Part shown: one piece after another, positions 2,737 through 29,311 of the stretch
Numbering within the stretch: the first letter of the stretch is position 1
Layout of the letters: each line of letters begins with the position of its first letter
Source: a virus
Length of the DNA stretch: 29,311 bases
Strand: one strand, 5' to 3'
IMG/VR virus record: IMGVR_UViG_3300010379_000036
Span: 1-29,311 of that record
The notes under the pieces: model-generated
Told to the model about the DNA's origin: nothing
What the model saw: only the letters and a program-made list of their open reading frames with translations
Database searches by the model: none
Made by a program: the position numbers and the translations under genes

Positions 2737-3105
2737 ATGCTCTACGCCATGAAACTCGAAGCCATCGCGGACCACATTCTCTACGAGCGGCGCATGTGCC
2801 GAAAATACGGCGTCGCTTGGCAGCCGAAGCGGATGATCGAATATCAGATTCGGCCGGCCTGGGTCGCCCGCATCATCGGCTTTCAGCCCGACGGCCGCGA
2901 GATCAGGCAGTTCCTGCGCGGCCGGCGGGATTATAGCCAGGCGACCAGCACCGGCTCGCGTGGCATCTGGATCCACTATCTGCTCGATGATGGGATTTAT
3001 GAAGTGAACGAGCCGGTGAAGTGGGGTCAGTGCCGGCGTTATTTCCTGCGTGTGCGCAACGGCGCGGCCACGGAAGTGGTCAGGAGGGGTTATGTCAGAC
3101 CTTAA
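2737..3105 (+). CDS. Hypothetical protein, 122 residues, upstream of the IbrA-like gene
   Basis: AGGAGG overlaps the previous stop (2726-2728) and sits five bases before ATG 2737. The product is basic and rich in Arg, Tyr and Trp, including RRMCRKYGVAWQPKRMIEYQ, then GFQPDGREIRQF and GIWIHYLLDDGIYEVNEP. Its 3' end overlaps the start of the PP-loop gene by 14 bases, so the two are probably translated as a coupled pair. I recognise no family. The strand-rich, aromatic C-terminal half looks like a small beta-domain (perhaps SH3- or OB-like), but this is only an impression from the residue pattern. Confidence 0.6.
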   Translation: MLYAMKLEAIADHILYERRMCRKYGVAWQPKRMIEYQIRPAWVARIIGFQPDGREIRQFLRGRRDYSQATSTGSRGIWIHYLLDDGIYEVNEPVKWGQCRRYFLRVRNGAATEVVRRGYVRP

Positions 3106-4324: not shown

Positions 4325-4710
4325 CGAACGAGGATGCAAAGTTTTATGCGACGTTGGGCCCGTTCCTGGCCAAGCGCGAGGTGCACAAGGTGATCAGCGC
4401 GCCGCCCTGGGACGACGCCGGCAAAACCTGGTTCGTGTGTTGGCGCAACGGAAAAGTGGCTGGCTTCGCAGGCGTGGTTATCGATGGCGAAAAGGCAAGC
4501 TTCTGTTCGGATTACACCCCTGAGGTAGTCGTTCGCGAGCTACTGATCCGGGAGCGCTCCAAATGGGCCAAGGCGCAGGGCGCTCACCAGGTCTCGGCCG
4601 TGGTCGGCACAGCGGACGAGGAGACTTACGTGCGCCACGGTTTTGAGGTGGCGCGCAAGTTAAAAAACTTCACGGTTATGCGCAAGGAGCTGAAATGGGC
4701 ATCAGTTTGA
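4297..4710 (+). CDS. GNAT-fold N-acetyltransferase-like protein
   Basis: The 137-residue product begins at ATG 4297, 28 bases inside the preceding gene and behind AAAAGGAGG. It shows the GNAT order: an N-terminal MADLRITRLTNEDAKFYATL, a central strand pair around VCWRNGKVAGFAGVV and GEKASFCSDYTPEVV, a helix with LLIRERSKWAKAQGAHQVSA (the acetyl-CoA-binding region, though the classic Q/R-x-x-G-x-G/A is weak), and a C-terminal YVRHGFEVARKLKNFTVMRK resembling the terminal YxxxGF motif. Its position between IbrA-like and IbrB-like genes, overlapping both, implies it belongs to the same complex or pathway. It could modify the adenylylated product or a protein partner; the weak CoA motif leaves open an inactive structural role. 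Confidence 0.7.
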   Translation: MADLRITRLTNEDAKFYATLGPFLAKREVHKVISAPPWDDAGKTWFVCWRNGKVAGFAGVVIDGEKASFCSDYTPEVVVRELLIRERSKWAKAQGAHQVSAVVGTADEETYVRHGFEVARKLKNFTVMRKELKWASV

Positions 4711-5357
4711 TCGGCAGCGCCTTGATCGAGCGCGGCAAGGCTATCGCCGAGGATGTGGCCACGCTGCCACCAGACGAGGCGGTGCTTGTTCTCAACGCGA
4801 TTCGCCTGGCCCTGCACGCTGCCAGTCCCATGCGTGCCGAGCCAGTGGATTGCGTGCAGTGGGTTCCGGCAGAGGATGTCGCGGCCAATGATTACAACCC
4901 GAACACCGTGGCGCCCCCGGAGATGCGCTTACTGGCGACATCCATCGAGGAAGACGGCTACACGATGCCGATCGTCACATGGCTGGACCAGGAGCGGCGC
5001 GAGGTCGTGGATGGCTTCCATCGGCGGCGCGTGGGCGTCGAGAACCAGACCGTGCGTGCCCGCGTTCGCGGCCTGCTGCCGGTCACTACCGTCAATCAGG
5101 AGCGAATCGACCGCGGCGATCGCATTGCGGCGACCATCCGTCATAACCGCGCGCGCGGCAAGCACCAGGTCCAGGCCATGAGTGAAATCGTCCAGGAGCT
5201 GGCGCGGCGGAATTGGTCCAACGGCAAAATCTCCAAAGAGCTTGGCATGGAGCCGGACGAGGTATTGCGTTTGAAGCAAATCACGGGATTGGCGGAAATG
5301 TTCGCCGATCAGGAATTCTCTGAAGCTTGGGAGGCCATCGATGGGCAAGCTGACTAA
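4695..5357 (+). CDS. IbrB-like ParB/Srx-family protein with helix-turn-helix
   Basis: The protein has 220 residues; ATG 4695 overlaps the previous gene by 16 bases and follows AAGGAG. After a helical N-terminus, residues 66-112 hold the ParB-like core: DYNPN (66-70), LLATSIEEDGYTMPIVTWLD, and VVDGFHRRR (104-112), the counterpart of the nucleotide-binding GEHR/GERR box of ParB. RHNRARGKHQ (149-158) corresponds to the second ParB box. Residues 160-200 (IVQELARRNWSNGKISKELG) form a helix-turn-helix. This matches IbrB, the partner of IbrA. ParB-family members are now known to bind or hydrolyse nucleotides such as CTP or ATP, so a switch or nuclease/ATPase role on DNA is plausible. The DNA target is unknown. 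Confidence 0.82.
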   Translation: MGISLIGSALIERGKAIAEDVATLPPDEAVLVLNAIRLALHAASPMRAEPVDCVQWVPAEDVAANDYNPNTVAPPEMRLLATSIEEDGYTMPIVTWLDQERREVVDGFHRRRVGVENQTVRARVRGLLPVTTVNQERIDRGDRIAATIRHNRARGKHQVQAMSEIVQELARRNWSNGKISKELGMEPDEVLRLKQITGLAEMFADQEFSEAWEAIDGQAD

Positions 5358-6971: not shown

Positions 6972-7041
6972 CCAGGAGGCAGGAACCAGGAGGCAGGAAC
7001 CAGGAATCATCCCTGACCCCTGTCTCCTGCCTCCTGTTCCC
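6972..7041. repeat. Palindromic CAGGNNN/CCTGNNN heptad element 1
   Basis: The left arm is five consecutive 7-mers starting CAGG (CAGGAGG CAGGAAC, twice, then CAGGAAT). The right arm is the complement class (CTGACCC CTGTCTC CTGCCTC CTGTTCC). It starts at the base after the small terminase stop and is followed by CCCTTTTTG, so it could act as a hairpin terminator or attenuator before the large terminase. Confidence 0.85.
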
Positions 7042-7050
7042 TTTTTGCAC

Positions 7051-8670
7051 ATGAGTATGGACAAGATCACCAAACAATGGATGCGCTCGGCCGCCGATGA
7101 GCGCGCCGTCGACGCCGGCTGCCGCTTCGATCTCCAGGCCGCCGATCGCGTCCGCCAGTTCGCCGCCAAGTTCTGCCGCCACGCCGAAGGCCAGTTCGCC
7201 GGCAAGCCCTTCGAGCTGTTCGATTGGGAATGGCTGGACGTGGTCGGCCCGCTCTACGGCTGGAAAGATGCGGCCGGCATCCGCCGTTACTCGAAGTTTG
7301 CCGGCTGGGTTCCCAAAAAACAGGGCAAGAGCAGCCTGGCCGCCGTGCTCATCGTCTACATGCTGCTGGCCGACGGCGAGGCAGCCGCGGAAATCTATGG
7401 GGCAGCGCGCGATCGTGGCCAGGCAGGCGTCGTGTTCAAAGTCGTCCAGAACATGGTCAACCAGTCTCCGGCCCTGCTCCAATACCTGAAGGTAATTCCC
7501 AGTGTCAAGCGCATCGTTTTCGAGCAACGGGCCAGCTTCTATACCGTGCTGTCGGCGGAGGCGCGCAAGACCGGCCACGGCGTCAACGGCCATTTCGCCG
7601 TCATCGACGAGCTGCACGTCGTTACGGCCGAACTCTACAACACGCTGCGTTACTGCGGCGCCTCGCGCCGCCAGCCGATCTTTTTCGAGATCTCGACCGC
7701 AGGCAACGACAAGACGTCCCTCGGCTACGAACGCTACCTCTACGCGAAGAGCGTGCGTGATGGCAGCAACACGGACGATACCCGCCTGCTCGTCTACATC
7801 ACCGAAGCGGATGGCAACGACGTATGGGAAGATGAAAAGCAGTGGCGCAAAGCCAACCCCTCCCTCGGCCACACGATTGCCCTGGACAAGTTCCGCGCGG
7901 ACTTCAGCGAAGCCAAGAACGGCACGCCCAGCGACCGCGCCGCCTTCCGCCAGCTCCGCCTCAACATCTGGCAGGATGCTACCAGCGGCTACTTCGACAT
8001 GCAGCAATGGGACGCCTGCGGCCGCTTCGCCGTCTCTCTGGAAGCCCTCCACGATCGCGATTGCTACGGCGGCCTCGATCTCGCCAACACGCTCGACATG
8101 ACTTGCTTCGCGCTCGCCTTCCCCGATGAAGACGGCGGCTATACCTTGCTGCTCTGGTGCTGGGTCCCCGAGGACATCAACCAGGAGCGCGAACGCACCA
8201 ACCGCCGCACCTATTACGACTGGATTCAACAGGGGCTGATCCGCAAGACCGAGGGCGACGAGCTCGACTATGCGCGCGTCCGCCGCGATGTCCGGGAGAT
8301 CGGCGAGCACCACAACATCAAGTCCATCGGCTACGACCCGTGGAACGCCGGCCAGATCGCCCAGGAGCTCCAGTCGGACGGCTTCGTGATGGAAAAAGTC
8401 CCACAATGCATCGCCAATTTCAACGAAGCGCTGGTGGCGATGTCCCGGCTGCTCAAAGCCGGCACGCTCCGCCACGGCGCCAACCCCGTGCTGCGCTGGA
8501 TGGCCGGCAACACCGTCGTCCGCGCCGATGGGCTAGGCTGCGTGATGCCCGCCCGCAAAAAGTCCACGGACAAAATCGATGGCATCGTTGCCGAGGCCAT
8601 GGCCATCGGCCAGGCCATCGGCAAGACCAAAGACGATGACTGGTACGAACCGGGCATGTTGAGAGATTAG
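7051..8670 (+). CDS. Phage terminase large subunit
   Basis: This is the DNA-packaging motor. Of 539 residues, the N-terminal ATPase carries the Walker A-like motif WVPKKQGKSSLAA near residue 90, Walker B HFAVIDELH near 190 and a coupling segment FFEISTAGND near 215. The C-terminal RNase H-like nuclease shows YGGLDLANTLDMTCFAL near 345, with the first metal-binding Asp, IGYDPWNAGQIAQEL near 425 and the final acidic STDKIDGIVAEAMA near 510. The order and length fit HK97/lambdoid-type large terminases of the Terminase_1 family. The start is uncertain: TTG 7045, ATG 7051 and ATG 7057 are in frame and none has a clear ribosome site; ATG 7051 was chosen. The frame is intact. Confidence 0.94.
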   Translation: MSMDKITKQWMRSAADERAVDAGCRFDLQAADRVRQFAAKFCRHAEGQFAGKPFELFDWEWLDVVGPLYGWKDAAGIRRYSKFAGWVPKKQGKSSLAAVLIVYMLLADGEAAAEIYGAARDRGQAGVVFKVVQNMVNQSPALLQYLKVIPSVKRIVFEQRASFYTVLSAEARKTGHGVNGHFAVIDELHVVTAELYNTLRYCGASRRQPIFFEISTAGNDKTSLGYERYLYAKSVRDGSNTDDTRLLVYITEADGNDVWEDEKQWRKANPSLGHTIALDKFRADFSEAKNGTPSDRAAFRQLRLNIWQDATSGYFDMQQWDACGRFAVSLEALHDRDCYGGLDLANTLDMTCFALAFPDEDGGYTLLLWCWVPEDINQERERTNRRTYYDWIQQGLIRKTEGDELDYARVRRDVREIGEHHNIKSIGYDPWNAGQIAQELQSDGFVMEKVPQCIANFNEALVAMSRLLKAGTLRHGANPVLRWMAGNTVVRADGLGCVMPARKKSTDKIDGIVAEAMAIGQAIGKTKDDDWYEPGMLRD

Positions 8671-9435: not shown

Positions 9436-9696
9436 ATGAGAGCCCTTGCCGCCAAGCTGCTTGCGCGCGCCCGCGACATCGTTCGCCGGCGTTGGCCTCC
9501 GCTACGGCGCCTGCTCCTGCTCGCTTCCCAACTCCTCACACTCCGCGACTACCTGGGCCTGGCCGCCCTGGCCGGCATGATCGCCGGCTGGTGGATGATC
9601 TGGCCCGCTCTCGGTCTCATTATCCCCTGCACGATCCTGTTCGCACTGGTGACCCACAGCCGCCTCCGGGAGGAGGGGCGCGGCGAGAGGGACTAG
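9436..9696 (+). CDS. Small membrane protein, 86 residues
   Basis: ATG 9436 is preceded by GGGAAGGGAACGAGG, a plausible though imperfect ribosome site. The N-terminal 30 residues are strongly basic (KLLARARDIVRRRWPPLRRL). Then come two hydrophobic segments, YLGLAALAGMIAGWWMIW and ALGLIIPCTILFALV, and an Arg/Glu-rich tail. The pattern fits a two-pass inner-membrane protein with a positive cytoplasmic N-terminus. Placed just before the portal it could be a holin-like or assembly factor, but no lysin is nearby and holins normally lie elsewhere, so this is only a possibility. The stop codon is immediately followed by a heptad element. Confidence 0.55.
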   Translation: MRALAAKLLARARDIVRRRWPPLRRLLLLASQLLTLRDYLGLAALAGMIAGWWMIWPALGLIIPCTILFALVTHSRLREEGRGERD

Positions 9697-9822
9697 GAGT
9701 CAGGAGCCAGGAATCAGGACTCAGGAGACAGGAGTCAGGGGTCAGGAATCACTGCTGCCTCCTGCCTCCTGATTCCTGCCTCCTAATTCCTGCCTCCTGA
9801 TTCCTGACGCCTGCCTCCTGCC
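9697..9822. repeat. Palindromic heptad element 2
   Basis: Left arm heptads (AGGAGTC AGGAGCC AGGAATC AGGACTC AGGAGAC AGGAGTC...) run to about 9750. The hinge is AATCACTGCTG, and the right arm (CCTGCCT CCTGATT CCTGCCT CCTAATT CCTGCCT CCTGATT CCTGACG) runs to 9821. It is among the longest copies and fills nearly the whole gap before the portal gene. Confidence 0.88.
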
Positions 9823-12246: not shown

Positions 12247-12261
12247 AAGCGCCTCTTCATA

Positions 12262-12468
12262 GACAGGCGGCAGGATACAGGAATCAGGAGACAAGCATCA
12301 GGCATCAGGAGCCAGGCATCACTGACTCCTGCCCCCTGCCTCCTGACTCCTGGACTGCCCCCTGATCCCTGCCCCCTGACCGCTGTTCCTCCATTCCCTC
12401 CTGTCCACGAATGCAGGAGGCAGGGGGCAGGAGTCACTGATACCTGACTCCCGATCCCTGACTCCTAT
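12262..12468. repeat. Two adjacent palindromic heptad elements (3a, 3b)
   Basis: Element 3a has left heptads from 12262 to about 12319 (CAGGCGG CAGGATA CAGGAAT CAGGAGA...), hinge GCATCACTGAC, and right heptads to about 12387. Element 3b has left heptads at 12413-12436 (CAGGAGG CAGGGGG CAGGAGT), hinge CACTGA and right heptads to 12468. Together they fill the portal to protease gap. Confidence 0.87.
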
Positions 12469-12483
12469 TCAAAGGAGCCGCTC

Positions 12484-13558: not shown

Positions 13559-13952
13559 GGACCCTCCTACCCTCTTCGGCAAGCCGATCGTGTTCACCGG
13601 TTCCCTCGAATCGAGCAGGCACCGCTTCGAGAAAATCGACCTCGACCCGGTCACGATGATCGCCAAGCTCAACGCCTGGGACGCCGATGGCTGGGAGTAC
13701 GTGCAGGGCTTCCCCGCTCTGCAGATGAGTCGAGTCGCCGGCGTGCCCATGAAGCCAAACGTGCTCTGCCTCCTGCGCCGCCGTAGTGAACTGCCCACGG
13801 CTGTGCAACAGGAGCGCATGGCCTGCGCCGCCGCCATGTGTGCAGGCTGCAAGCAGAATCTGCCCTACGATGAAGAGCACGGCGTGCACATCGAACCTGA
13901 AGGCACCGCCTTCTGCCGCGCCATCAGGATCCGCGAGCGCATGGACCAGTAG
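13551..13952 (+). CDS. Hypothetical protein with DUF4177-like core and C-terminal Cys cluster
   Basis: ATG 13551 overlaps the stop of the micropeptide. In this 133-residue protein, residues 28-65 read KIDLDPVTMIAKLNAWDADG then WEYVQGFPALQMSRVAGVPM and NVLCLLRRRS. The LN-x-W/L-x-x-x-G-W-E-x-V pattern with a closing hydrophobic strand is that of DUF4177-like small beta-alpha domains. The C-terminal 45 residues contain AMCAGCKQNLPYDEEHGVH and GTAFCRAIR, with three Cys and two His that could bind zinc. It sits between head protease and capsid, where accessory head genes are usual, but no virion role is shown. Its stop is followed directly by two heptad elements. Confidence 0.65.
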   Translation: MREDPPTLFGKPIVFTGSLESSRHRFEKIDLDPVTMIAKLNAWDADGWEYVQGFPALQMSRVAGVPMKPNVLCLLRRRSELPTAVQQERMACAAAMCAGCKQNLPYDEEHGVHIEPEGTAFCRAIRIRERMDQ

Positions 13953-14098
13953 TCAGGGATCAGGAGTCAGGGATCAGGAGTCAGGGATCAGTGATTCCTG
14001 CCTCCTCACCGGACGCAGGCTAAAAAGGGGTTCGCCAGGAGTGAAGGATCAGGAGACAGGGATCAGTGATTCCTGCCTCCTCACTCCTGGCTCCTGCT
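13951..14098. repeat. Two palindromic heptad elements (4a, 4b)
   Basis: Element 4a (13951-14008) has CAGGGAT CAGGAGT repeated, hinge GATCAGTGATTCC, and a short right arm. Element 4b (14036-14098) has CAGGAGA CAGGGAT, the same hinge ATCAGTGATTCCTGCCTCCT, and a longer right arm. The identical hinge and first right heptads suggest duplication of one copy. Confidence 0.86.
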
Positions 14099-14114
14099 AA
14101 CCGAGGCATTCACC

Positions 14115-14624: not shown

Positions 14625-15027
14625 TCTCCTGGTCGAGCATCTCGAAGCCCTGCCCCAAGTCCACGCCGCCATCTTGGAGCCCTTCGACTGGCCCGCCGTG
14701 CAGCAGCGCCTCGACCAGGCGGGCATCGACTACATCGCCAACCCCGTCCGCCTGCCGCGGCACATCGTTGTTGAAGACGATCTCACCCTGCAGGCCTGGG
14801 TGGTGCTCGCCAGCGCGGACGTCGGCGCCGGCCGCGACCGCAGTCTCTGCGGCCAAGGAGAAACGCCCAGCCCCCGAACCATCCTCGCCAAACGCTTCCA
14901 CGCCCGCGAAAGCGTCGCCAGCCCCGGTTGGCGCAAGATCATGGAAGCCAACCGCGTGCAGGTATCAGGGGTCAGGAATCAGGGATCAGGAATCAGGGCT
15001 CAGGCATCAGCAGTCACTGACTCCTGA
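14599..15027 (+). CDS. Hypothetical protein, 142 residues, C-terminus encoded by a repeat
   Basis: ATG 14599 lies behind CCGGAGGGCC and overlaps the previous gene. Residues 1-120 (MPKTKSAFDLLVEHLEALPQ, DWPAVQQRLDQAGIDYIANP, LPRHIVVEDDLTLQAWVVLA, RTILAKRFHARESVASPGWR) look like a compact helical then strand domain with good codon bias. From about residue 121 the frame runs straight through a CAGGNNN element, giving VSGVRNQGSGIRAQ and a terminal AVTDS. That tail is clearly repeat-derived; the ancestral stop was probably lost when the repeat inserted. No family is recognised. Position between head protease and capsid suggests a head-associated role. Confidence 0.55.
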   Translation: MPKTKSAFDLLVEHLEALPQVHAAILEPFDWPAVQQRLDQAGIDYIANPVRLPRHIVVEDDLTLQAWVVLASADVGAGRDRSLCGQGETPSPRTILAKRFHARESVASPGWRKIMEANRVQVSGVRNQGSGIRAQASAVTDS

Positions 15028-15049
15028 CCCCTGCCTCCTGGCTGCTGGA
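14959..15049. repeat. Palindromic heptad element 5 (overlaps a coding 3' end)
   Basis: Left heptads (ATCAGGG GTCAGGA ATCAGGG ATCAGGA ATCAGGG CTCAGGC) are translated as part of the gene starting at 14599. The hinge is CAGTCACTGAC, and the right arm CTCCTGA CCCCTGC CTCCTGG ends at about 15049. From 15050 to 15112 a G-rich tract with GGGGATAGGGGCG and T6 follows; no gene is seen. Confidence 0.85.
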
Positions 15050-15112
15050 TTGCCGACAGCGCCGACGGCGAGGCAGTAGGGGCGAGGGAAGAGGGGATAG
15101 GGGCGTTTTTTA

Positions 15113-16919: not shown

Positions 16920-16925
16920 GCGAAT

Positions 16926-17013
16926 TAGGAATCAGGAGTCAGGAATCAGGAGTCAGGAATCAATGCTGCCTGCTGACCCCTAGCCCCTGACGCCTGACCC
17001 CTGACACCTGACT
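16926..17013. repeat. Palindromic heptad element 6
   Basis: Left arm AGGAATC AGGAGTC repeated five times, hinge GAATCAATGCTGCC, right arm with CCCCTGA CGCCTGA CCCCTGA CACCTGA. The element occupies the gap between capsid stop and the next gene. Confidence 0.87.
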
Positions 17014-17563: not shown

Positions 17564-17740
17564 ATGGCCGAACCCAAGAAACCCGAAGCCACGGCCGAGC
17601 GCATCGAAAGCCTGGCCAGGGAGATCTACTGCGCCCTGGTCGTGTCTTCGCACACCGCCCACAAGACGTTGGAGAGCCTGGCGGAGGATGCCTGGATCAA
17701 GGCCCGCGCCTTCTACAGCGGCAAGCGGGCTGAAAGTTAA
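17564..17740 (+). CDS. Small helical protein, 58 residues
   Basis: ATG 17564 follows TGAGGAGTAGTG; a GTG at 17561 is an alternative. The product MAEPKKPEATAERIESLARE then IYCALVVSSHTAHKTLESLA and EDAWIKARAFYSGKRAES is almost wholly helical and charged at both ends, 58 residues long, ending at TAA 17738-17740. It lies between a probable head protein and a beta-helix protein, and both flanks are heptad elements, so it is an isolated cistron. Similar short helical proteins occur in phage head modules, but no family is recognised. Confidence 0.6.
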   Translation: MAEPKKPEATAERIESLAREIYCALVVSSHTAHKTLESLAEDAWIKARAFYSGKRAES

Positions 17741-17843
17741 AGGAGTCAGGAATCAGGAGTCAAGAATCAATGCTGGCTGCTGACCCCTGAATCCTGACCC
17801 CTGACTCCTGCTTCCTGACCCCTGCCTCCTGACTCCTGTTCCT
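17741..17843. repeat. Palindromic heptad element 8
   Basis: The left arm AGGAGTC AGGAATC AGGAGTC AAGAATC ends at the hinge AATGCTGGCTG. The right arm is longer (about nine heptads: CCCCTGA ATCCTGA CCCCTGA CTCCTGC TTCCTGA CCCCTGC CTCCTGA CTCCTGT), so the arms are unequal. Confidence 0.87.
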
Positions 17844-17857
17844 AAGGACCCGACCCC

Positions 17858-18760
17858 ATGCCAAAAACCCATTTTTCTCCCGTCGGCGGCAACAAATGGA
17901 ACGCCCTCGCCTCCTTCTACGACGAGCTGCGCGCCCACGGCAATGTCTACTGGGTCAACAGCGTCACCGGCAACAACACCACCGCCACGGGCCTCTCGCC
18001 CGAAGATCCGTTCGCCTCGATCGCCTACGCCATCGGCAAGTGCGTGGCCAACAACAACGACCTCATCCTGGTGATGGCCGGCCACGTCGAAACCGTCATC
18101 GCCGCCGGCACGGTCAACGTCAACGTCGCCGGCGTCACGATTCGCGGCATCGGCACGGGCCGCCAGCGCGGCACGGTCAATTACACCACCGCCGCCGCCG
18201 CCTCGTTCAACATCACCGCCGCCGGCGTCACGGTGCAAAATCTGACCTTCACGGGCATGGGCGTGGCCGCGGTCACCTCGATGGTCAACGTCAGTGCCGC
18301 GGACTGCTCGATTTTGGGCTGCGAGTTCGAGCATGCCAACGCCACGAACCAGGCGGGCATCGTCATCAGCAGCACAGCCGCAGCCAATCGCCTGATCATC
18401 GATTCCTGCTCGTTCCACGGCTCCAACAACGCCGGCACGACCAGTGCGCTCAGCATCGTCGGCGGCGACGCAGCGCGCGTGAGCAACTGCCGTTTCTCGG
18501 GGGCTTATCACGTCTCGGCCGGCGTGATCCTCAACCAGACCACGGCGTGCACGAATATCGCGATCGTCAACAATTACATCCAGAACCTGACCGCCTCGAA
18601 CACGAAGTCGGTGGTGCTGGTGGCCGCGAGCACGGGCCAGATCAGCGACAACAACTGCCAGATCCTTTCCGGCACGGCGCCCTTCACGGCTGCCGCGGGT
18701 AGCTGGGTGGGATGTAACTATTACGCCGCGACAATCGCAACGGCCGGAACGCTGATTTAG
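17858..18760 (+). CDS. Parallel beta-helix (pectate-lyase-like) virion-associated protein
   Basis: The 300-residue protein starts at ATG 17858 after AAGGA. Residues 25-60 contain GNVYWVNSVTGNNTTATGLS then PEDPFASIAYAIGKC, the usual entry to right-handed beta-helix proteins. From 70 onward short strands repeat every 20-25 residues with turns: VNVNVAGVTIRGIGTG, FNITAAGVTVQNLTFTGMG, CSILGCEFEHANATN, RLIIDSCSFHGSNNAG, ARVSNCRFSGAY, IAIVNNYIQNLTASN, GQISDNNCQIL. Beta-helices are common in tailspikes, but this gene lies in the head block between capsid and connector. A capsid-surface fibre or decoration is therefore as likely as a receptor-binding spike. No catalytic residues can be assigned. Confidence 0.75.
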   Translation: MPKTHFSPVGGNKWNALASFYDELRAHGNVYWVNSVTGNNTTATGLSPEDPFASIAYAIGKCVANNNDLILVMAGHVETVIAAGTVNVNVAGVTIRGIGTGRQRGTVNYTTAAAASFNITAAGVTVQNLTFTGMGVAAVTSMVNVSAADCSILGCEFEHANATNQAGIVISSTAAANRLIIDSCSFHGSNNAGTTSALSIVGGDAARVSNCRFSGAYHVSAGVILNQTTACTNIAIVNNYIQNLTASNTKSVVLVAASTGQISDNNCQILSGTAPFTAAAGSWVGCNYYAATIATAGTLI

Positions 18761-18843
18761 TCAGGGAACAGGAGTCAGGAGACAGGAATCAGGAGGCACT
18801 GATCCCTGACCCCTGACTCCTGACTCCTGATCCCTGTCCCCTG
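18761..18843. repeat. Palindromic heptad element 9
   Basis: Left arm CAGGGAA CAGGAGT CAGGAGA CAGGAAT CAGGAGG, hinge CACTGAT, right arm CCCTGAC CCCTGAC TCCTGAC TCCTGAT CCCTGTC CC. It starts one base after the TAG stop, and its right end touches the GGAGAA ribosome site of the next gene. Confidence 0.88.
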
Positions 18844-18850
18844 GAGAATT

Positions 18851-19359: not shown

Positions 19360-19443
19360 AGCAGGAATCAGGAGGCAGGAGACAGGAGACAGGAGTCAGG
19401 AGGCAGCAATCACTGTCTCCTGATCCCTGCCCCCTGATTCCTG
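19360..19443. repeat. Palindromic heptad element 10
   Basis: Left arm CAGGAAT CAGGAGG CAGGAGA CAGGAGA CAGGAGT CAGGAGG, hinge CAGCAATCACTG, right arm TCTCCTG ATCCCTG CCCCCTG ATTCCTG. It ends seven bases before the next start codon, leaving no room for a separate ribosome site. Confidence 0.88.
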
Positions 19444-19449
19444 AATGCA

Positions 19450-20109
19450 ATGTGGGGCAACGGCTTAACGCCATACATGGAGCCCAAGCAGCCGCGGTTT
19501 CGGCCGACGATGCTCGGTCCGCTGTCCATCATCACGCCGCCAGCGGACGGGCCCTACCTTGATATCGAGCTCACCAAGAAACATTGCCGCATCGAGGATG
19601 ACTACGACAACGACCTGGTCGAAGAATATATTCGCGTGGCCGCCAAGTGGTGCGAGCAGCAGATCCCCGGCCACCGCCAGCTCCTGCAAGCGACTTACCA
19701 GGTGCCCGTCGAAGCCTGGATCGATAGCCGCCGCCTGATGCTGCCCCGGCCGCCCCTGCAGCAGGTCAATCAAATCCAGTATTACGATTACAACGGCACG
19801 CTACAGGTCCTGGCCACGAGCTATTACCTGGTCGGCACGCCCTGGCGCGGAGCGGGCTTTATCCAGCGCGCCCCATTCCAGATCTGGCCGCCCTTCGAGC
19901 CCGATCGTCAGTACCCGATCCTCGTGACGTTCACCTGCGGCTACGTAACCGGCGTCGGCTGCGAGCCTTACCAAATCCCGGAAACGATCCGCCAGGCCAT
20001 GCGCCTGCACGTGCGCTGGCAGCACGCCAACCGCGGCGAAATCGAGACCCCCATGCCCAAAGCCATCCAGGACCACCTCGACCTCGAGGATTGGGGATCG
20101 TATGCCTAG
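19450..20109 (+). CDS. Head-tail connector protein (HK97 gp6-like)
   Basis: The frame spans 219 residues from ATG 19450 (ATG 19486 and 19510 are alternatives; none has a clear ribosome site). The core reads LTKKHCRIEDDYDNDLVEEY then IRVAAKWCEQQIPGHRQLLQ, the helical signature of gp6-like connectors (L-x-x-H-x-R-x-x-x-x-x-D-x-x-x-x-x-x-x-I-x-A-A). Strand-rich VEAWIDSRRLMLPRPPLQQV and QIQYYDYNGTLQVL follow, then VTFTCGYVTGVGCEPYQIPE and ETIRQAMRLHVRWQHANRGE, as in the family. Such proteins form the dodecameric or tridecameric ring under the portal. The order (connector, closure, gp10-like, DUF3168, tube) that follows is canonical. Confidence 0.85.
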   Translation: MWGNGLTPYMEPKQPRFRPTMLGPLSIITPPADGPYLDIELTKKHCRIEDDYDNDLVEEYIRVAAKWCEQQIPGHRQLLQATYQVPVEAWIDSRRLMLPRPPLQQVNQIQYYDYNGTLQVLATSYYLVGTPWRGAGFIQRAPFQIWPPFEPDRQYPILVTFTCGYVTGVGCEPYQIPETIRQAMRLHVRWQHANRGEIETPMPKAIQDHLDLEDWGSYA

Positions 20110-21234: not shown

Positions 21235-21651
21235 ATGGAAAAGATCCTCATCCAATTCCTGCTGGCCAACGCCCAAATCACGGGCCTGGCCAGCGGTCAG
21301 AACCTCCAGCCTCTCGCCGAGGATCAGGACTTGCCTCCCCCCTACATCGTCGTGCAAATGGTCAAGGGCCGGCGCACCACGACGCAAAAGGGCGCCGAAG
21401 GCACGCGCTTCCTGCACTTCTTTTTGATCTGTCACGGCACGACGCCCAAACAGGCCTCCGACATCCTCGAGGCGCTCGCTGCGATCGTCGATTGCGAAAG
21501 CGGCACGGTGACCGTCGATGCCGTCACCTACACGATCCGCGGCATCTTCGTGGAAGACGAAGAAACCGATTTCGACCCCCCGGTGCACGGCGACCAGGTC
21601 GGGGATCCTTCGGCGCACAAGCTCCTGTTGATGGTCAGCGAACCCCAGTAG
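21235..21651 (+). CDS. Tail completion protein, DUF3168-like
   Basis: The 138-residue product starts at ATG 21235 (MEKILIQFLLANAQITGLAS). Two upstream ATGs in frame (21217 and 21229) fall in or beside the repeat. DQDLPPPYIVVQMVKGRRTT corresponds to the conserved P-x-x-x-Y-I-V-x-x-x-V of DUF3168 proteins, and FLHFFLICHGTTPKQASDIL then EALAAIVDC to the strand plus helix of the fold; the C-terminus ends with a strand KLLLMVSEP. This family caps or terminates the siphovirus tail tube at the head end. Placement just after the gp10-like gene and before the tail tube is the standard order. Confidence 0.8.
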   Translation: MEKILIQFLLANAQITGLASGQNLQPLAEDQDLPPPYIVVQMVKGRRTTTQKGAEGTRFLHFFLICHGTTPKQASDILEALAAIVDCESGTVTVDAVTYTIRGIFVEDEETDFDPPVHGDQVGDPSAHKLLLMVSEPQ

Positions 21652-21779
21652 GCAGGAGTCGGGAGTCAGGCATCAGGAGTCAGGCATCAGGAATCAGGAG
21701 TCAGGAATCAGGAGTTAGGAGGCAGGGGTCAGTGATTCCTGTCCCCTGCCTCCTGTCCCCTGACTCCTGTCCCCTGCCG
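21652..21779. repeat. Palindromic heptad element 11
   Basis: The left arm runs for about ten heptads (CAGGAGT CGGGAGT CAGGCAT CAGGAGT CAGGCAT CAGGAAT CAGGAGT CAGGAAT CAGGAGT TAGGAGG CAGGGGT). The hinge is CAGTGATTCC, and the right arm runs six or more heptads. CCCCTTTTTGCTCTG follows at 21787, as after element 1. The remainder to 21894 has an AGACGCGAGAGC repeat fragment and no gene. Confidence 0.88.
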
Positions 21780-21894
21780 CATCCTCCCCTTTTTGCTCTG
21801 CTGATTCCTAGACGCGAGAGCCAGCGGTGTAGACGTCTGCACTCCCCCATTCCCTCGCCCCGCGCCCCTGTTCCCTCAGCCCTACACCACTGCC

Positions 21895-22323
21895 ATGCTC
21901 ATCGGCCTCGGCTGCGATTGTCAGATCAGCGTCAACCAGGGCGGCACCTATCAATCGATGGGCCTGATTCAGGATTTCGACCTCCCGGCGCCGGCCGGCA
22001 CCAAGGTCCTCAAATCCTGGATGCTGCAGCCCGATCTCTGGGAGCGCAACCGCCCCGGCATGATCGACCCGGGCGAGCTGCAGGAGACGTTCATTTTCTC
22101 GGCGGCCATGGCCGCCAACATCCTGAGCTGGTTGATGGTCGAGGACAGCTACTTCCTGTTCATTTTCAGCGACAAGACGCCGATCCAGACGCACGGCACC
22201 GAATGGGCTTTCCTCGGCTTCATCATGAAACCCTGGGGCGGCAAGGTGGCCATGAAAGAGGGCATCACGCAATCGCTGACGATCGCCCTCTCCGGTCCGA
22301 TCTCGATCACCCCAGCGGCGTAA
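21895..22323 (+). CDS. Major tail tube protein
   Basis: ATG 21895 opens MLIGLGCDCQISVNQGGTYQ. The 142 residues follow the siphovirus tube order: N-terminal strand, SMGLIQDFDLPAPAGTKVLK (strand plus loop), LWERNRPGMIDPGELQETFI, with the conserved P-G-M-I-D-P-G-E-L that precedes the F-x-F strand, then ILSWLMVEDSYFLFIFSDKT and WAFLGFIMKPWGGKVAMKEG ending SLTIALSGPISIT. The closing T-x-x-x-L-x-x-x-G is typical of TP901-1/lambda gpV-like tubes. No ribosome site is obvious before the ATG (CCTACACCACTGCC). The gene is intact and located directly upstream of tail chaperone genes. Confidence 0.78.
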   Translation: MLIGLGCDCQISVNQGGTYQSMGLIQDFDLPAPAGTKVLKSWMLQPDLWERNRPGMIDPGELQETFIFSAAMAANILSWLMVEDSYFLFIFSDKTPIQTHGTEWAFLGFIMKPWGGKVAMKEGITQSLTIALSGPISITPAA

Positions 22324-22371: not shown

Positions 22372-22650
22372 ATGCCGGTTTGCAACAAGCTCGTCAAAAG
22401 CATCGACCTGGCCAGCTCTAAACTCGTGCTTACCCACCGCGAGCCACCCCCGCCCCACGACATCGACTATGACCTCTCCGAGCTCGACCGCGAGCATGTT
22501 CTGGTCTTCGGCGCTCCCGACGTCCTCGAATCCGTCAAACCCGGCTTCGAATGCCATGTCGAGTTCGAGGAGGAAAACGGCATCAAATACGTGGTCGCCC
22601 TCACGGCCATCGCTCCCGTACAGGCGACCAGGCACAAGCGGCGGAAGTGA
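22372..22650 (+). CDS. Hypothetical tail-region protein, 92 residues
   Basis: ATG 22372 follows CGAGGGACTCGG. The protein is MPVCNKLVKSIDLASSKLVL, then DLSELDREHVLVFGAPDVLE, VKPGFECHVEFEEENGIKYV and a basic end ATRHKRRK. Its charge pattern (acidic middle, Lys/Arg end) and alternating strands suggest a small beta protein. It lies between tube and chaperone genes, where tail assembly accessory proteins are common. No family is recognised. Its stop is followed by a heptad element of a different sequence class (AGTAGAC). Confidence 0.58.
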   Translation: MPVCNKLVKSIDLASSKLVLTHREPPPPHDIDYDLSELDREHVLVFGAPDVLESVKPGFECHVEFEEENGIKYVVALTAIAPVQATRHKRRK

Positions 22651-22770: not shown

Positions 22771-23181
22771 ATGCGCAAACGCGACGCCCTGAAAGGCCGG
22801 CCCGAGAAACTTGCCACCGAGCAGGTGCCCACGCCCGAATGGGCCGACGTCGGCATCGCCGACATGACCATCCGGGAAATGACCTCCCTCGAGCTCGATC
22901 GCTGGCAGATGGACTGCCACGAAAAGAAACGCAAGAAACTGGGCGGCAAACTCGCCTTCCGGGCCTCGGCCATTGTCCGCTGCGCCCTGGACGACGACGG
23001 CAGCAAAATGTTCCAGGAGAGCGACGCCAGCTGGCTGGCGCTCAAGGGCGCCTCGGTAATCTCGCGGATCTTCGCCGCCATCCGCCGCCTCAACAACCTG
23101 GACGACGACGACAGCGAGGACGGGACGCCGGAAAAAAACCCCTCCGCGAGCGACACCTCCGGCGCTTCGGCTACCGGCTAG
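22771..23181 (+). CDS. Tail assembly chaperone, G-type short product
   Basis: ATG 22771 follows CTGGAGGAATCCC. In the 136-residue product the N-terminal half reads MRKRDALKGRPEKLATEQVP then IADMTIREMTSLELDRWQMD, with the chaperone-like T-x-R-E-M-T-S-x-E-x-D/R core. RKKLGGKLAFRASAIVRCAL, CALDDDGSKMFQESDASWLA and SVISRIFAAIRRLNN complete it, the pattern of phage tail assembly chaperones (lambda gpG-like). After an acidic DDDDSEDG stretch comes PEKNPSAS, coded across a slippery heptamer. The zero-frame tail (SDTSGASATG) is low-complexity. The protein chaperones the tape measure protein while the tube is built. Confidence 0.82.
   Translation: MRKRDALKGRPEKLATEQVPTPEWADVGIADMTIREMTSLELDRWQMDCHEKKRKKLGGKLAFRASAIVRCALDDDGSKMFQESDASWLALKGASVISRIFAAIRRLNNLDDDDSEDGTPEKNPSASDTSGASATG
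23133..23139 (+). promoter_or_regulatory. Programmed -1 ribosomal frameshift site A_AAA_AAC
   Basis: In the zero frame of the gene at 22771 the codons are GAA AAA AAC from 23131. The heptamer A-AAA-AAC is the canonical X-XXY-YYZ slippery sequence, and the -1 frame beyond it is open for 119 codons to TAG 23493-23495. A stem (GGCGCT near 23159 with AGCGCTGG near 23182) begins about 20 bases downstream and could stimulate slippage, though the spacer is longer than usual. Confidence 0.8.
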
Positions 23182-23495
23182 CGCTGGCCGTGCACCGCCT
23201 CGATGTCGACGAGGTGATGGACAGCCTGTCGGTAAAGAAGCTCCGCGAGTGGCAGCATTACGAATGCCTGGAGCCCTTCGGCGCCCGCCGCGACGATTAC
23301 CGCATCGGCGTGCTGATCAGCCTGATCGGCAGCCTGCTCGGGCTCGAGGTGACTCCGGCGGAGATCTTCCCGGAGCTAGCGCCAGGCAAGCAATGCCGCC
23401 CACGGCGCCCGCGGCGGCCGCGCTCGCGGCGCCGGCTGAAAATCGCCCAATCCTTGTTGTTGGGTTTCGTGCAAATGACCGATGGACACGGCTAG
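23139..23495 (+). CDS. Tail assembly chaperone T-type extension, made by -1 frameshifting as a G-T fusion
   Basis: This -1 frame extension adds PLRERHLRRFGYRLALAVHR, then LDVDEVMDSLSVKKLREWQH and YECLEPFGARRDDYRIGVLI to the first 123 residues of the gene at 22771, a fusion of about 241 residues. R-F-G-Y-R-L-A-L-A, L-R-E-W and L-E-P-F-G-x-x-R-D-D are characteristic of the second tail chaperone gene of lambda-like phages (T, or gpGT). No start codon with a ribosome site serves this frame alone before the T domain; GTG and ATG codons in the 23190-23220 area are internal to it. The Arg-rich part (RRPRRPRSRRRLKI) near the end is unusual. Frameshifted production of a minor G-T fusion is required for tail assembly in lambda. 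Confidence 0.78.
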   Translation, partial: PLRERHLRRFGYRLALAVHRLDVDEVMDSLSVKKLREWQHYECLEPFGARRDDYRIGVLISLIGSLLGLEVTPAEIFPELAPGKQCRPRRPRRPRSRRRLKIAQSLLLGFVQMTDGHG

Positions 23496-23496
23496 G

Positions 23497-23574
23497 AGAC
23501 ACGAGTCAGGAAACAGGGATCAGGAGACAGGGATCAGGAAAAAGTGATTCCTGACTCCTGACTCCTGTCTCCTC
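23497..23574. repeat. Palindromic heptad element 12
   Basis: Left arm AGGAGAC ACGAGTC AGGAAAC AGGGATC AGGAGAC AGGGATC AGGAAAA, hinge AGTGATTCC, right arm CCTGACT CCTGACT CCTGTCT CCTCTGA. The tape measure start codon follows at 23582 with no separate ribosome site. Confidence 0.88.
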
Positions 23575-23581
23575 TGATCAC

Positions 23582-25324
23582 ATGGCAGCATCGATCGGCA
23601 GTCTGGCCTATAAGCTCACCGCGGACCCGACCGGGTTCGAAGGCGGCATCAGCCGCGCCATGAAGGCCGTCGACAAGTTCGCCCTGCAGGTCGGTAAAGG
23701 CTTCGCCTCGATCCCCAATGCCCTCGGCAAAATCGCCACGGCGCCGTTCAACGTGGTCCAGGGCATCCTCGGCCCCATCCAAAGCGCTCTCTCCGGCATC
23801 CCGGTCATCGGCGGCCTGCTGGCGGCGATCCCGCTCTCCGGAGTCGGTTTCCTGGCCTTCATGAAACAAGGCATCGCCCACATTCAGGAGCTCGTGCTCT
23901 GGTCCAGGCGCCTGCATGTTGCCACGGAGGATATCGGCGGCGTCTTCAACTTCTTTGGCGAGTCGATCGGCGCGCTCGACAAGGCGATGGTGAAATTCTC
24001 CGTGCAATTGAGCATGGCGCAGGGCGGCTCCGCGGCCGCGCGGCGCATGTTCGAGGGACTCGGCCTAAGTTGGCAAGCGCTCGCCAAGCAGGCGCCGCTG
24101 GACCAGCTCCGTAGCATCATGGATCATTTGGCGGCCATTCCGAATCCTGCCGACCGCGCGCGCGTCGGCACACAGCTCTTCAGCCGTGCTTATGCCGAGC
24201 TCGCGCCCGCGCTGGAGCGCGGCAGCAAGGCTATGGACAGCGTGATCGAGAAGAACAAGCTGCTAGGCGGCTCTTTTTCGGAGGCCCAAGGCGCCCTAGT
24301 TCTCCAGGCGGCCAAAGCATTCAAAGACATCGAGCTCGCCGTGCGCGGCCTGCAACAAAACCTTGCCATCGTCGCGGCCGGGCCGCTCGTCACGATCAAT
24401 GAGCTCCTGACGAAGTTCGTCACCAAGACAGAAGGCATCGCAGGGATCTTTACGACCATCGAAACCGCGGCGCGGAAGGTTTTCCGCTTCATTGGCAATG
24501 CCATTGGCGAGCTGATCGAGGAAATCAAAAAGCTCATGGACGATATACGGGGCCAGACGCCGAAGGGCATGATCGCCGATGCCGCGAGCGGTAAAGGGCT
24601 GCTCGGCCGCATCTTCAATCCGGTAGCATACGGCATGGCCGCGGAGGCCGCCGCGCAAAACCCCGCCGGCAAGGGCCCTGGATTAGGCGACCGGGCACTC
24701 GATGCCATGGACGATTGGATCGGCGGCCTGATGACGAAGGCAAAGAAATGGTTGGAGGGCGACTCAGGCGAGAAAAACGCCTTCAATCCCCGCTTTCAGA
24801 AGCAGCTAGACATTGCCGACACGCTGCGGTCTCCGCTGGCTGCCTTCCGCGCCGAAATGGAGAATCTCAATGGAATATTCCTGACCGCCCAGGAACGGGG
24901 CGAAACCTACGCCGGGGCCGTGCAAAAGACCAAGGACGCCTTCAGCTCGGCACTCGGGATCAAATTCAAATCGCCTCTGGACGAACTGTTCGACAAGGCC
25001 GATCAATTGGGGAAAGCCGCTGACGACGCGCTGATCAGCGATACCGAGCGCTTCGCCGGCCTCGGCCAGCTCGGCGAAGGTCTGCTGAAAGATCAGGCCG
25101 AGGTCAAGCTGCCCAGCTTCATGACGCTCGGCAGCCAGGATTTCGCCGAGCTGCAGGCCAAGCTCGAGGGCCAGGGCGCCAACAGCGTCCAGGACCGCAT
25201 CGCCGCCATCATGGAAGAGCAAAAAGCCAAGATGGACGAACAGATCCGCATCGGCCAGGAAATCGCCCGCGCCATCCGCGACAAGCAACAAACGGTGATC
25301 AAACAGGCGCCGATCAATGATTGA
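23582..25324 (+). CDS. Tape measure protein
   Basis: ATG 23582 begins MAASIGSLAYKLTADPTGFE then GGISRAMKAVDKFALQVGKG, the typical N-terminus of tape measure proteins (A-D-x-x-x-F-x-x-x-I). Hydrophobic segments at about 47-98 (IPNALGKIATAPFNVVQGIL, GGLLAAIPLSGVGFLAFM) match the membrane-active region of the family. The rest is long amphipathic helix (KDIELAVRGLQQNLAIVAAG, AARKVFRFIGNAIGELIEEI, ENLNGIFLTAQERGETYAGA, QDRIAAIMEEQKAKMDEQIR). At 580 residues and roughly 1.5 angstrom per residue, the predicted tail would be about 87 nm. The gene sets tail length and passes DNA across the host envelope. It follows the G/T chaperones as in lambda-like phages. Confidence 0.87.
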   Translation: MAASIGSLAYKLTADPTGFEGGISRAMKAVDKFALQVGKGFASIPNALGKIATAPFNVVQGILGPIQSALSGIPVIGGLLAAIPLSGVGFLAFMKQGIAHIQELVLWSRRLHVATEDIGGVFNFFGESIGALDKAMVKFSVQLSMAQGGSAAARRMFEGLGLSWQALAKQAPLDQLRSIMDHLAAIPNPADRARVGTQLFSRAYAELAPALERGSKAMDSVIEKNKLLGGSFSEAQGALVLQAAKAFKDIELAVRGLQQNLAIVAAGPLVTINELLTKFVTKTEGIAGIFTTIETAARKVFRFIGNAIGELIEEIKKLMDDIRGQTPKGMIADAASGKGLLGRIFNPVAYGMAAEAAAQNPAGKGPGLGDRALDAMDDWIGGLMTKAKKWLEGDSGEKNAFNPRFQKQLDIADTLRSPLAAFRAEMENLNGIFLTAQERGETYAGAVQKTKDAFSSALGIKFKSPLDELFDKADQLGKAADDALISDTERFAGLGQLGEGLLKDQAEVKLPSFMTLGSQDFAELQAKLEGQGANSVQDRIAAIMEEQKAKMDEQIRIGQEIARAIRDKQQTVIKQAPIND

Positions 25325-25466
25325 CAGGAGACAGGGGGCAGGAGGCAGGGGCCAGGAGACAGCGGCCAGGAGACAGCGGTCAGGAGGCAGGGATCAGCAA
25401 TGATTTCTGACTCCTGACCCCTGAACCCTGTCTCCTGACCCCTGACTCCTGCTTCCTGACCCCTAC
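25325..25466. repeat. Palindromic heptad element 13
   Basis: Left arm CAGGAGA CAGGGGG CAGGAGG CAGGGGC CAGGAGA CAGCGGC CAGGAGA CAGCGGT CAGGAGG CAGGGAT. The hinge is CAGCAATGATTTC, and the right arm has about eight CCTGNNN units. It begins at the base after the tape measure stop and ends six bases before the next start. Confidence 0.88.
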
Positions 25467-26875: not shown

Positions 26876-26965
26876 GTCAGGCAAGTAAACAGGAGACAGG
26901 AATCAGGAGTCAGGAATCAGAAGTCAGTGATTCCTGCTTCCTGACCCCTGACTCCTGACACCTGA
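26876..26965. repeat. Palindromic heptad element 14
   Basis: Left arm CAGGAGA CAGGAAT CAGGAGT CAGGAAT CAGAAGT, hinge CAGTGATTCC, right arm CTGCTTC CTGACCC CTGACTC CTGACAC CTGAG. AGAGG follows as a ribosome site for the gene at 26978. Confidence 0.88.
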
Positions 26966-26977
26966 GCAGAGGTTCCC

Positions 26978-28177
26978 ATGGCCGACATGCCCGCCGGTTA
27001 CACCTTCGGCGCCCAGGCGATCCGCAGTCTGCAAGAGACTGCCCGGCAGACGAAGCGCGCGGCACTCAACCGTCCGCACGATCAATACGCGGCGCCGCCG
27101 GATGTCAGCTCGCCCGAAATCCATCCCATCTTGTGCACCAGCGGGACTCCTGACCCGACAACGAATTATTATGCAGGAACGGTCCTGCAATGCAGCGTCG
27201 GCAATCCGCCGCCGGTCCAGAATCTGCTCGGAGCATGCTGGCTCTGGCCTATCAACGGCGAAGCGCTTGCAGCAAACGTGATCTATCATTGCCGGCTCTA
27301 TGGACCCAATCCAGGTGACGGCAAGCCCGTCTTTGCGCCCATCGGTTACGAGTCCACGGCCACGATCTTCGTTGAAGTCAACGGCGGCGTTTCGCCAACC
27401 TCGGCTTACATTTTCGATGGTCTGCTGGTCTCGACCACGCCAAATTCCCCAACCTTCAATGCTCCAGCCGGAGCCATTTGGATAGCTTCATACAACGAGC
27501 ACGTGCTCCAGCCCTCCTTTGCCTACCGAGCCACGCCTAACGGGACGTACACTGCCATCCCCTTTGGCGGAGGAGCCGCAGTCCAACGACCACTATATAT
27601 GGTGTTGCTCGAGCAGGACGCCTCGGCGAGCCAGCCAGGGATCGTGAACCTCAATTCCCAAACGATGGGGAACGGAACCAAGCTTTTCCAGGACAGCGTG
27701 GAGGTCAACACGCTTCTGGCAGGAACGAGCCATTTCATAGTTCACAACGACACTTCGGCGCCTTTGCCAGATGGAACGACCAATGTTTTCATCGTGAACC
27801 CAGGCGCCCAGGTGACTGGTGTCCAAGGAACCTTGAATGTTCTCACTCAGCTTTTCCTCGGCTACGGTGGGGCAGGACTTCCTCCCGGCTCTATTCCTGT
27901 AGCACAAGTCTCCTACAGTGGTCATCGGTTTATGGTCGATGTGCTGAGCGAGATAACTACTGTCATTTTGGTTATGGGGCCTGATGCTTACCTTGGTTCT
28001 TATCTCGGAGACAGCAACTCATCTCTTCTGTTCAACGGGGTCATTATCGCAGGAGAAGGGTTCGCTGTCGGACCAGAGTCAATAACTTCAGGTGCAACGC
28101 CTGGAGTTTCAGGGTCTTTCACTGCCGGTGCTCACACCGTGACAGTCACGAAGGGAATCATCACAAGTATCGTCTAA
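26978..28177 (+). CDS. Probable tail fibre / receptor-binding protein
   Basis: ATG 26978 follows AGAGGTTCCC. Of 399 residues, the first 50 are helical and basic (ADMPAGYTFGAQAIRSLQET then ARQTKRAALNRPHDQYAA), as in many fibre attachment regions. The rest is Gly/Thr/Asn-rich beta sequence (NPPPVQNLLGACWLWPINGE, FVEVNGGVSPTSAYIFDG, TTNVFIVNPGAQVTGVQGTL, LLFNGVIIAGEGF). The end, GSFTAGAHTVTVTKGIITSI, matches the closing hairpin common to phage tail structural proteins. Codon third positions become clearly less GC-rich after about 27140 than in the head genes, consistent with module exchange at the host-recognition end. Its stop TAA (28175-28177) directly abuts the convergent stop of the next gene. 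Confidence 0.65.
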   Translation: MADMPAGYTFGAQAIRSLQETARQTKRAALNRPHDQYAAPPDVSSPEIHPILCTSGTPDPTTNYYAGTVLQCSVGNPPPVQNLLGACWLWPINGEALAANVIYHCRLYGPNPGDGKPVFAPIGYESTATIFVEVNGGVSPTSAYIFDGLLVSTTPNSPTFNAPAGAIWIASYNEHVLQPSFAYRATPNGTYTAIPFGGGAAVQRPLYMVLLEQDASASQPGIVNLNSQTMGNGTKLFQDSVEVNTLLAGTSHFIVHNDTSAPLPDGTTNVFIVNPGAQVTGVQGTLNVLTQLFLGYGGAGLPPGSIPVAQVSYSGHRFMVDVLSEITTVILVMGPDAYLGSYLGDSNSSLLFNGVIIAGEGFAVGPESITSGATPGVSGSFTAGAHTVTVTKGIITSIV

Positions 28178-29107
28178 TCACAGCCCTGAAGAGCGTCCGT
28201 CCAAAGCAAATGAGTACGGATTTGCATAGGGAGGCGTTCCGCTTGCACTCGGCGTCACATCCACCGGATGTGCCGCGATGAACCCGCTCGGCATGATGCA
28301 GATGAGCGACTGCAGTGGGTCATTCGGGTCGCGCGTGTAATCCTTCACCCACAGGAAGATCCCGCTGCCAGCAAACGGCATCTGACCGCTCGGGTAGAAG
28401 ATCAAATCCACCAAGCCGCTGACCAATGGCGGAAGATTCCCTCCGTAGGTCGCATTCGTGGCGAGGTCGATAGCCACGTCCTTGGGGAGTTGCAATTCGG
28501 GTTCGCCTTGCATTGGTCGCGCCTGCCGAATGATCCGGTAAGTGGTTACCAGCGATAGCGGCCAAGGCGGTGCGTGCTCGAGTGTCAACGTGAGTGGATC
28601 GGGCACATCAGCGATCCGCGTCACAAAGCCGCCGCCATTGAATTCGATGTGATCGCCAATTTGCACGGGCCAGAGGTTTGCCGGACTTGGAGTATAGGGT
28701 GGCGCCGCCTGGCGAAAGGAAAAATCTGGATACGGAGCAAGCGGCGGCACTGGCAAGGGCTCAAGGGTCGCGGTCGTTCCGCTTGCTGAAATGCGTCGAA
28801 TCTGGGTTGGTGCAGTTGGAGTTGGCGAATAGACCACCTGAAAATCATTTACCTGCTGCACATATTGCAGGTTGTACACCAACCCATTCGCGTCGGGCAC
28901 CATGCGCAACCCGCAAGGAGTTCCGTCGCTCTTGGCCCGCTGCTTGGCAATAAGCAACCATCCCTGAAGCTGCTCCGCGCCGCGCGATGCATTGGTGTGC
29001 TCGATGGCACGCGGGATGAGCGCTATCGCAACGGTCGTCAGAATGAGCACCAGGGTCAGGACGACCAGTAGTTCGACCAGCGTATAGGCGCGACGACAGT
29101 GGGCCAT
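28178..29107 (-). CDS. GspH/FimT-like prepilin-type pseudopilin
   Basis: The 309-residue frame starts at ATG 29107 with GAGGAG seven bases upstream; a longer frame from 29170 is not preferred. The N-terminus, MAHCRRAYTLVELLVVLTLV then LILTTVAIALIP, is a class III prepilin leader: basic residues, then a cleavage position with Ala at -1 in place of the usual Gly, Tyr at +1, conserved Glu at +5 and a hydrophobic helix. The next segment, SRGAEQLQGWLLIAKQRAKS, is GspH/FimT-like. The long C-terminal region (about 250 residues) contains IGDHIEFNGGGFVTRIADVP and TYGGNLPPLVSGLVDLIFYP, a planctomycete-style enlarged minor pseudopilin. It is likely a host gene at the right margin of the element. Regulation is not visible. 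Confidence 0.85.
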   Translation of the reverse strand: MAHCRRAYTLVELLVVLTLVLILTTVAIALIPRAIEHTNASRGAEQLQGWLLIAKQRAKSDGTPCGLRMVPDANGLVYNLQYVQQVNDFQVVYSPTPTAPTQIRRISASGTTATLEPLPVPPLAPYPDFSFRQAAPPYTPSPANLWPVQIGDHIEFNGGGFVTRIADVPDPLTLTLEHAPPWPLSLVTTYRIIRQARPMQGEPELQLPKDVAIDLATNATYGGNLPPLVSGLVDLIFYPSGQMPFAGSGIFLWVKDYTRDPNDPLQSLICIMPSGFIAAHPVDVTPSASGTPPYANPYSFALDGRSSGL

Positions 29108-29311
29108 GAGGGAACTCCTCGCAAAATCGGAATTGTTACCGGAGACACAAGACACACATTTTGCCTCCACTTTAGTGCGCAGTCAACCAGTTTCCGGCAC
29201 AAGCTATCAGCTTGTGCTACGGCCGCGCCGTCTGCTCCTTTGCGCGACAATGGAGTCTTGCAACATGCGACAAGCGTGTTGGCTTCCTAAAGTACCCCGG
29301 CGGCGTAGCCG
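29108..29311. other. Region upstream of the pseudopilin, no gene seen
   Basis: On the plus strand the stretch runs from the pseudopilin's ribosome site through a CACAAGC palindrome at 29197-29220 to the window end. No start codon with a ribosome site or convincing coding frame is seen on either strand, and no clear attachment-site repeat was found matching other parts of the window. Confidence 0.4.
29197..29220. repeat. GCACAAGC...GCTTGTGC palindrome, copy 5
   Basis: GCACAAGC-TATCA-GCTTGTGC then TAC is the same family as at 13398, 21197 and 26515 but lies outside the virion module, upstream of a host-type gene. This supports the family being a host-wide repeat that also invaded the phage region. 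Confidence 0.88.

Follow-up and report, generated by a model that had tools for sequence, protein, structure and literature searches.

Does this virus make a single tail assembly chaperone from the gene for G, or do some ribosomes change frame near its end and produce a second, longer protein from the same start codon? A preliminary description of the window (the whole stretch of 29,311 nucleotides analysed here) had favoured the second answer, proposing a canonical A_AAA_AAC programmed -1 frameshift that yields G and G-T proteins as in phage lambda. From sequence comparisons, we consider it very probable that the window carries lambda-type G/GT programmed -1 frameshifting, with two products from one start.

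The ORF for G starts with ATG, stops with TAG at 23179-23181, and its tail end reads GAA AAA AAC CCC TCC ... TAG. Bases 23130-23139 of the window are GGAAAAAAAC, and the heptamer sits inside a run of seven adenines (A7, 23132-23138). The zero-frame codons at the site are GAA (23131-23133), AAA (23134-23136) and AAC (23137-23139); therefore, the heptamer is in the X_XXY_YYZ phase, and both the site and its phase are as first described. From the heptamer to the last base of the G stop is 42 nt. Our heptamer pattern, which accepted any base at X and Y, also flagged an in-phase A_AAC_CCC at window position 23136. Codons of the -1 frame begin at 23139 and continue for 118 sense codons to a stop at 23493-23495. 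Thus, the frame is open as had been reported, but the reported 119 codons include the stop. Joining the 123 residues of G through AAC to these 118 gives a G-T fusion of 241 residues, the approximate length given earlier, and the motifs RFGYRLALA and LEPFG that had been noticed are both present in the -1 product.

Matches to protein families identify the two products. The zero-frame product matches phrog_344 (tail assembly chaperone) at E 1.1e-17, and the -1 product matches both Pfam PF06223 (Phage_tail_T; E 8.4e-8, 33 bits against a cut-off of 25.9) and phrog_337 (E 6.2e-10), the same two families that lambda gpT matches. G is different: lambda G matches PF06894 at 9.2e-62 and also phrog_42, whereas the window G matches neither PF06894 (at E up to 1) nor phrog_42. 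In a Pfam search of five records, T exceeded the PF06223 cut-off in three and fell below it in locus L024 and in Rhodococcus phage Shagrat. When the search was extended to E up to 1, PF06223 matches appeared in 6 of 14 control genomes (above the cut-off in one), and weak matches alone therefore mean little.

The neighbourhood also resembles that of lambda (Table 1). In both, the genes are ordered G, T and then tape measure, T overlaps the end of G in the -1 frame, and an in-phase heptamer is found near the G stop. The differences are that lambda uses G_GGA_AAG in place of A_AAA_AAC, and that the window has an extra small ORF before G, which separates it from the upstream ORF that weakly matches phrog_158. 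A weakly similar ORF occupies the same place in a related contig, G003 (E 4e-4 in that single comparison). The lambda-like reading of the preliminary description is thus supported as regards mechanism and T domain, by the order before the tape measure, the -1 phase, the slip site and the relatives described below, while G stands outside PF06894.

Table 1. Features of the window, with positions, strand and basis of assignment.
Feature	Position	Strand	Basis
Probable major tail protein	21895..22323	+	weak: phrog_158, E 0.057; position
Small ORF between probable major tail protein and G	22372..22650	+	no PHROG match
G-type tail assembly chaperone (136 aa), made by normal translation	22771..23181	+	ORF and phrog_344
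GAGGA, candidate internal Shine-Dalgarno-like stimulator	23116..23120	+	weak; 12 nt before heptamer
Slippery heptamer A_AAA_AAC, zero frame GAA AAA AAC	23133..23139	+	sequence, phase, relatives
T domain, -1 frame	23133..23495	+	PF06223, phrog_337, identity to relatives
Tail length tape measure protein	23582..25324	+	phrog_9483, E 1.2e-15; phrog_2854, E 3.6e-14
Hairpin gaps, first part	6972-7052, 9693-9815, 12263-12466, 13941-14103, 14958-15054, 16920-17012, 17727-17833		
Hairpin gaps, second part	18749-18844, 19361-19457, 21645-21783, 23494-23588, 25322-25460, 26884-26978		

The arrangement recurs in metagenomic relatives. One contig (IMGVR_UViG_3300009525_000052) is 100% identical to the window over 2601 bases. 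A second, G003 (IMGVR_UViG_3300010379_000008), holds loci L015 and L022; it shares blocks of about 80-88% DNA identity with the window on the terminase-to-capsid side, and in search matches its G and T are 38% and 47% identical to those of the window. Two more distant loci, L023 and L024, were found by patterns taken from inside T and not from the slip site. Identity to the window is 40% (L022), 37% (L023) and 27% (L024) for T, and 39%, 30% and 19%, respectively, for G. Despite this divergence, GAA AAA AAC is in phase at all four loci, window included, and T always lies in the -1 frame. The G stop of L024 comes directly after the heptamer, and the L024 T scores 22.4 bits, under the Pfam cut-off. 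Scans of viral contigs with G, T or the tape measure singly found the identical contig alone each time, and scans of genome contigs with two T alignments found no relative. Against named phages, tblastn at E 0.01 found no record for T and Shagrat alone for G (28% identical to the window G). At E up to 10, G retrieved 5 records and T retrieved 14; two Microcystis phages stood at 9e-3 in that run and were absent from the listing at E 0.01.

For a wider view, we compared 24 loci: the window, its three IMG/VR relatives, Shagrat, lambda (included for reference), and 18 named phage records, a non-random sample hand-picked for host spread from two match lists (10 of 21 and 8 of 52); the identical contig was left out of the count. 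T lies in the -1 frame in all 24, and an in-phase XXXYYYZ is found near the end of G in 20, counts that are not independent because several of the phages are close kin. The heptamer is AAAAAAC in the window, L022, L023, L024, Pmp3, Mcat20, Mcat32 and Psymv2; AAAAAAG in PHB09, Mcat14 and IME1369_02; GGGAAAC in Dubu, Rooney, Wentworth, phiSASD1, Mae-JY04, Yara and Dryad; GGGTTTC in Jflix2; and GGGAAAG in lambda. Additional in-phase matches to the pattern are AAAGGGC in Mae-JY04 and CCCAAAG in Pmp3. The Streptomyces phages Dubu and phiSASD1, annotated with a joined CDS, are like the window in having T in the -1 frame and a heptamer near the G stop, and Dubu, the one of the two that was tested, also has G in phrog_344 and T in phrog_337 and PF06223; they differ in that the heptamer is GGGAAAC with the G stop directly after it. 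Moraxella phages Mcat20 and Mcat32, Psychrobacter Psymv2 and Pasteurella Pmp3 share the in-phase AAAAAAC and the -1 frame of T, but their proteins are of low similarity (reached only through the L023 or P1312 T queries) and are annotated as separate genes. In fact, only 3 of the 20 named phage records (Dubu, phiSASD1 and Jflix2) carry a joined CDS and the other 17 list two separate genes, which makes it plausible, as had been suggested, that automated annotation would miss the fusion.

A canonical heptamer is lacking in 4 of the 24 loci, namely Shagrat, P1312, Madraxi and REQ1. These actinophage pairs keep T_TTC near the end of G (GAG GAT TTC or GA[G/A] TCT TTC), and at the same place Rhodococcus phage Jflix2 has the canonical G_GGT_TTC; the sites are at L004 3351-3357, L036 1180-1186, L048 and L049 880-886, and L050 868-874. 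The T_TTC pairs may slip by the A-site tRNA alone. Literature searches on slippery sites of Rhodococcus phages and on heptamers in metagenomic phage tails returned nothing.

How much weight can the heptamer bear? Counted on both strands, AAAAAAC occurs 4 times in the window where 1.7 occurrences are expected, and 4 or more are seen in 8 of 100 shuffles. In-phase XXX(AAA/TTT)Z sites number three in the 6219 codons of 24 window ORFs hand-chosen as probable genes. The probability of one such site is 0.013 in 20 random codons drawn from the codon usage of these ORFs, and 0.16 in the last 20 codons of G when G is resampled synonymously. Thus, the heptamer by itself is only moderately unlikely by chance and no more than suggestive of a programmed site. 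The main weight comes from the retention of GAA AAA AAC in all four divergent phages: conditional on the residues E-K-N, multiplying the four codon-usage probabilities together gives 7e-5, an approximate value in which the loci count as independent.

An in-phase A_AAA_AAC is also found at window 4662-4668, 14 codons short of where ORF 4297-4710 ends, and we weighed it as a further candidate programmed frameshift site. The -1 frame there is open for 231 codons and corresponds to the next ORF (4695-5357), which has its own ATG. Because this site has the same motif and an open -1 frame, the motif alone is no proof of programming. Neither ORF had a Pfam match at 0.01, and loci L014 and L015 held no convincing homologue (best E 0.55).

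Of the explanations weighed, we rank ribosomal frameshifting above a T that is initiated on its own, slippage by RNA polymerase and an error of assembly. T could be a separate gene read from its own internal start with no frameshift, which is how the 17 two-gene records annotate it, and T-frame starts do exist in the window past the heptamer (GTG 23190, GTG 23214 and ATG 23217). However, in the window and the three relatives closest to it, the first such starts lie at T residues 20, 25, 27 and 14, inside or beyond the conserved F-x-Y/H-x-LA motif, so that starts in these four phages cut into the FxYRLAL stretch or lie past it. By eye, the three window starts have no well-placed Shine-Dalgarno sequence, a GAGG lying merely 2 nt before ATG 23217, and a separate T would leave the conserved in-phase heptamer unexplained. 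Upstream of the heptamer, 12 of the 20 heptamer loci, including those of G003 and L024, have no ATG, GTG or TTG in the T frame after the last stop, and in Mcat20 and Mcat32 the heptamer is precisely where the T frame opens. At least one such start is present in the other 8, the window included, where ATG 22839 lies within G, 294 nt before the heptamer. The internal-start argument is not valid in every phage because lambda has a GTG at T residue 3 and IME1369_02 an ATG at T residue 8, early starts that would keep the whole T motif. Independent initiation of T in the window is highly improbable.

The A7 run raises two further explanations. RNA polymerase, and not the ribosome, could slip on it and insert one A in some transcripts, and an uninterrupted A7 (GAAAAAAAC) is indeed found in all four close loci as well as in Mcat20 and Mcat32. 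But A7 is short for efficient polymerase slippage, and homologous pairs have, towards the end of G, the heptamers GGGAAAC, GGGAAAG or GGGTTTC, which contain no long homopolymer; both points make polymerase slippage in place of frameshifting quite improbable. That the conserved A7 serves both ribosome and RNA polymerase, the level of G-T being set by the two slippages together, we consider improbable. Finally, the T frame could reflect a homopolymer error of assembly, given that the site is an A7 run in an IMG/VR virus record. Such an error is the least probable explanation, and a very unlikely one, as a second contig is identical over 2601 bases and the same A7 and phase occur in three divergent phages.

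Ribosomal frameshifting would thus operate in a siphophage-type tail module that makes two products from a single start. The majority of ribosomes would end G at its stop codon. A minority would slip back one base on A_AAA_AAC, with tRNA-Lys moving from AAA to AAA and tRNA-Asn from AAC to AAA, and would continue in the -1 frame to complete the G-T fusion of 241 aa. If the proteins act as in lambda, G would coat the tape measure, and the less abundant fusion would recruit major tail subunits through its T part. We infer the slippage, its rate and these binding roles; the sequence, phase, families and conservation are observed directly.

What might stimulate the shift? A GAGGA precedes the heptamer in all four close loci, at 12 nt in the window, 12 and 6 nt in G003, and 6 nt in both L023 and L024, and it is a weak candidate for a frameshift stimulator. 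Passages of PMC5009743 give 9-14 nt as the spacing of stimulatory Shine-Dalgarno sequences in -1 shifting, so the GAGGA spacings fit only in part, although counting there may differ. An acidic stretch of the protein may be the simple cause of GAGGA conservation. When downstream RNA folds were compared with shuffles in 8 segments of the four loci, none was significant (z -1.36 to +0.64).

The lambda G:GT mechanism and its wide conservation are described in passages of PMC5009743, where A_AAA_AAC is the g-t shift site of the archaeal virus HCTV-2, a halovirus, and where, in E. coli, it is much less shift-prone than A_AAA_AAG. This low shift-proneness counts against A_AAA_AAC, yet a low rate suffices. 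Sections of PMC3711429 list A_AAA_AAC among consensus heptamers and report measured frameshifting of 6% and 7% in two genes from a cluster of phage tail chaperones. According to PMC10885494, 3679 SEA-PHAGES genomes contain 2397 joined tail assembly chaperones, and 103 genomes lack a known slip motif close to the annotated site. Because frameshifted G/GT pairs are well known from lambda and many other phages, the finding is an ordinary one: a correct and well-supported member of this kind, in an uncultivated phage. An uncultivated phage lineage and its three relatives join a recoding system of wide conservation, and G and G-T of the window receive their correct annotation. The lineage holds A_AAA_AAC at a fixed place while T has diverged to 27-40% identity; knowledge of the mechanism is left as before.

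Other features of the window and its relatives came to light. Many intergenic gaps of the window contain hairpins in which AGGAGTC-like units of 7 nt are followed by their reverse complement (Table 1). On the two strands, tandem 7-nt pairs number 57 and 51 in the window (29.3 kb) versus 0 and 1 in L015 (21.6 kb). Where the window has the gap 12247-12471, L015 (16255-16414) holds an unrelated palindromic repeat, GTTCCCAGGCTCTGCCTGGGAAC; from this one gap, intergenic hairpins may be swapped as whole types between related phages. A 30-nt sequence, CGTTTAACCGCAGGCCCTCAGGGCCGCGCG, is present in four near-identical copies at 20113 (one base different), 20608, 22330 and 22713, one of the four lying just upstream of G. 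At about 17660-17908, between two blocks shared with the window, L015 has a reading frame, MKIRPLSDRVLVRR..., that looks GroES-like by eye, and the matching gap in the window is only about 80 bases. At the window end, the minus strand (28178-29170) encodes a pseudopilin-like protein with the N-terminal methylation motif PF07963, perhaps host flank or cargo. Upstream of the terminase, the ORF at 3050-4324 (424 aa) combines PAPS reductase and DUF3440 domains.
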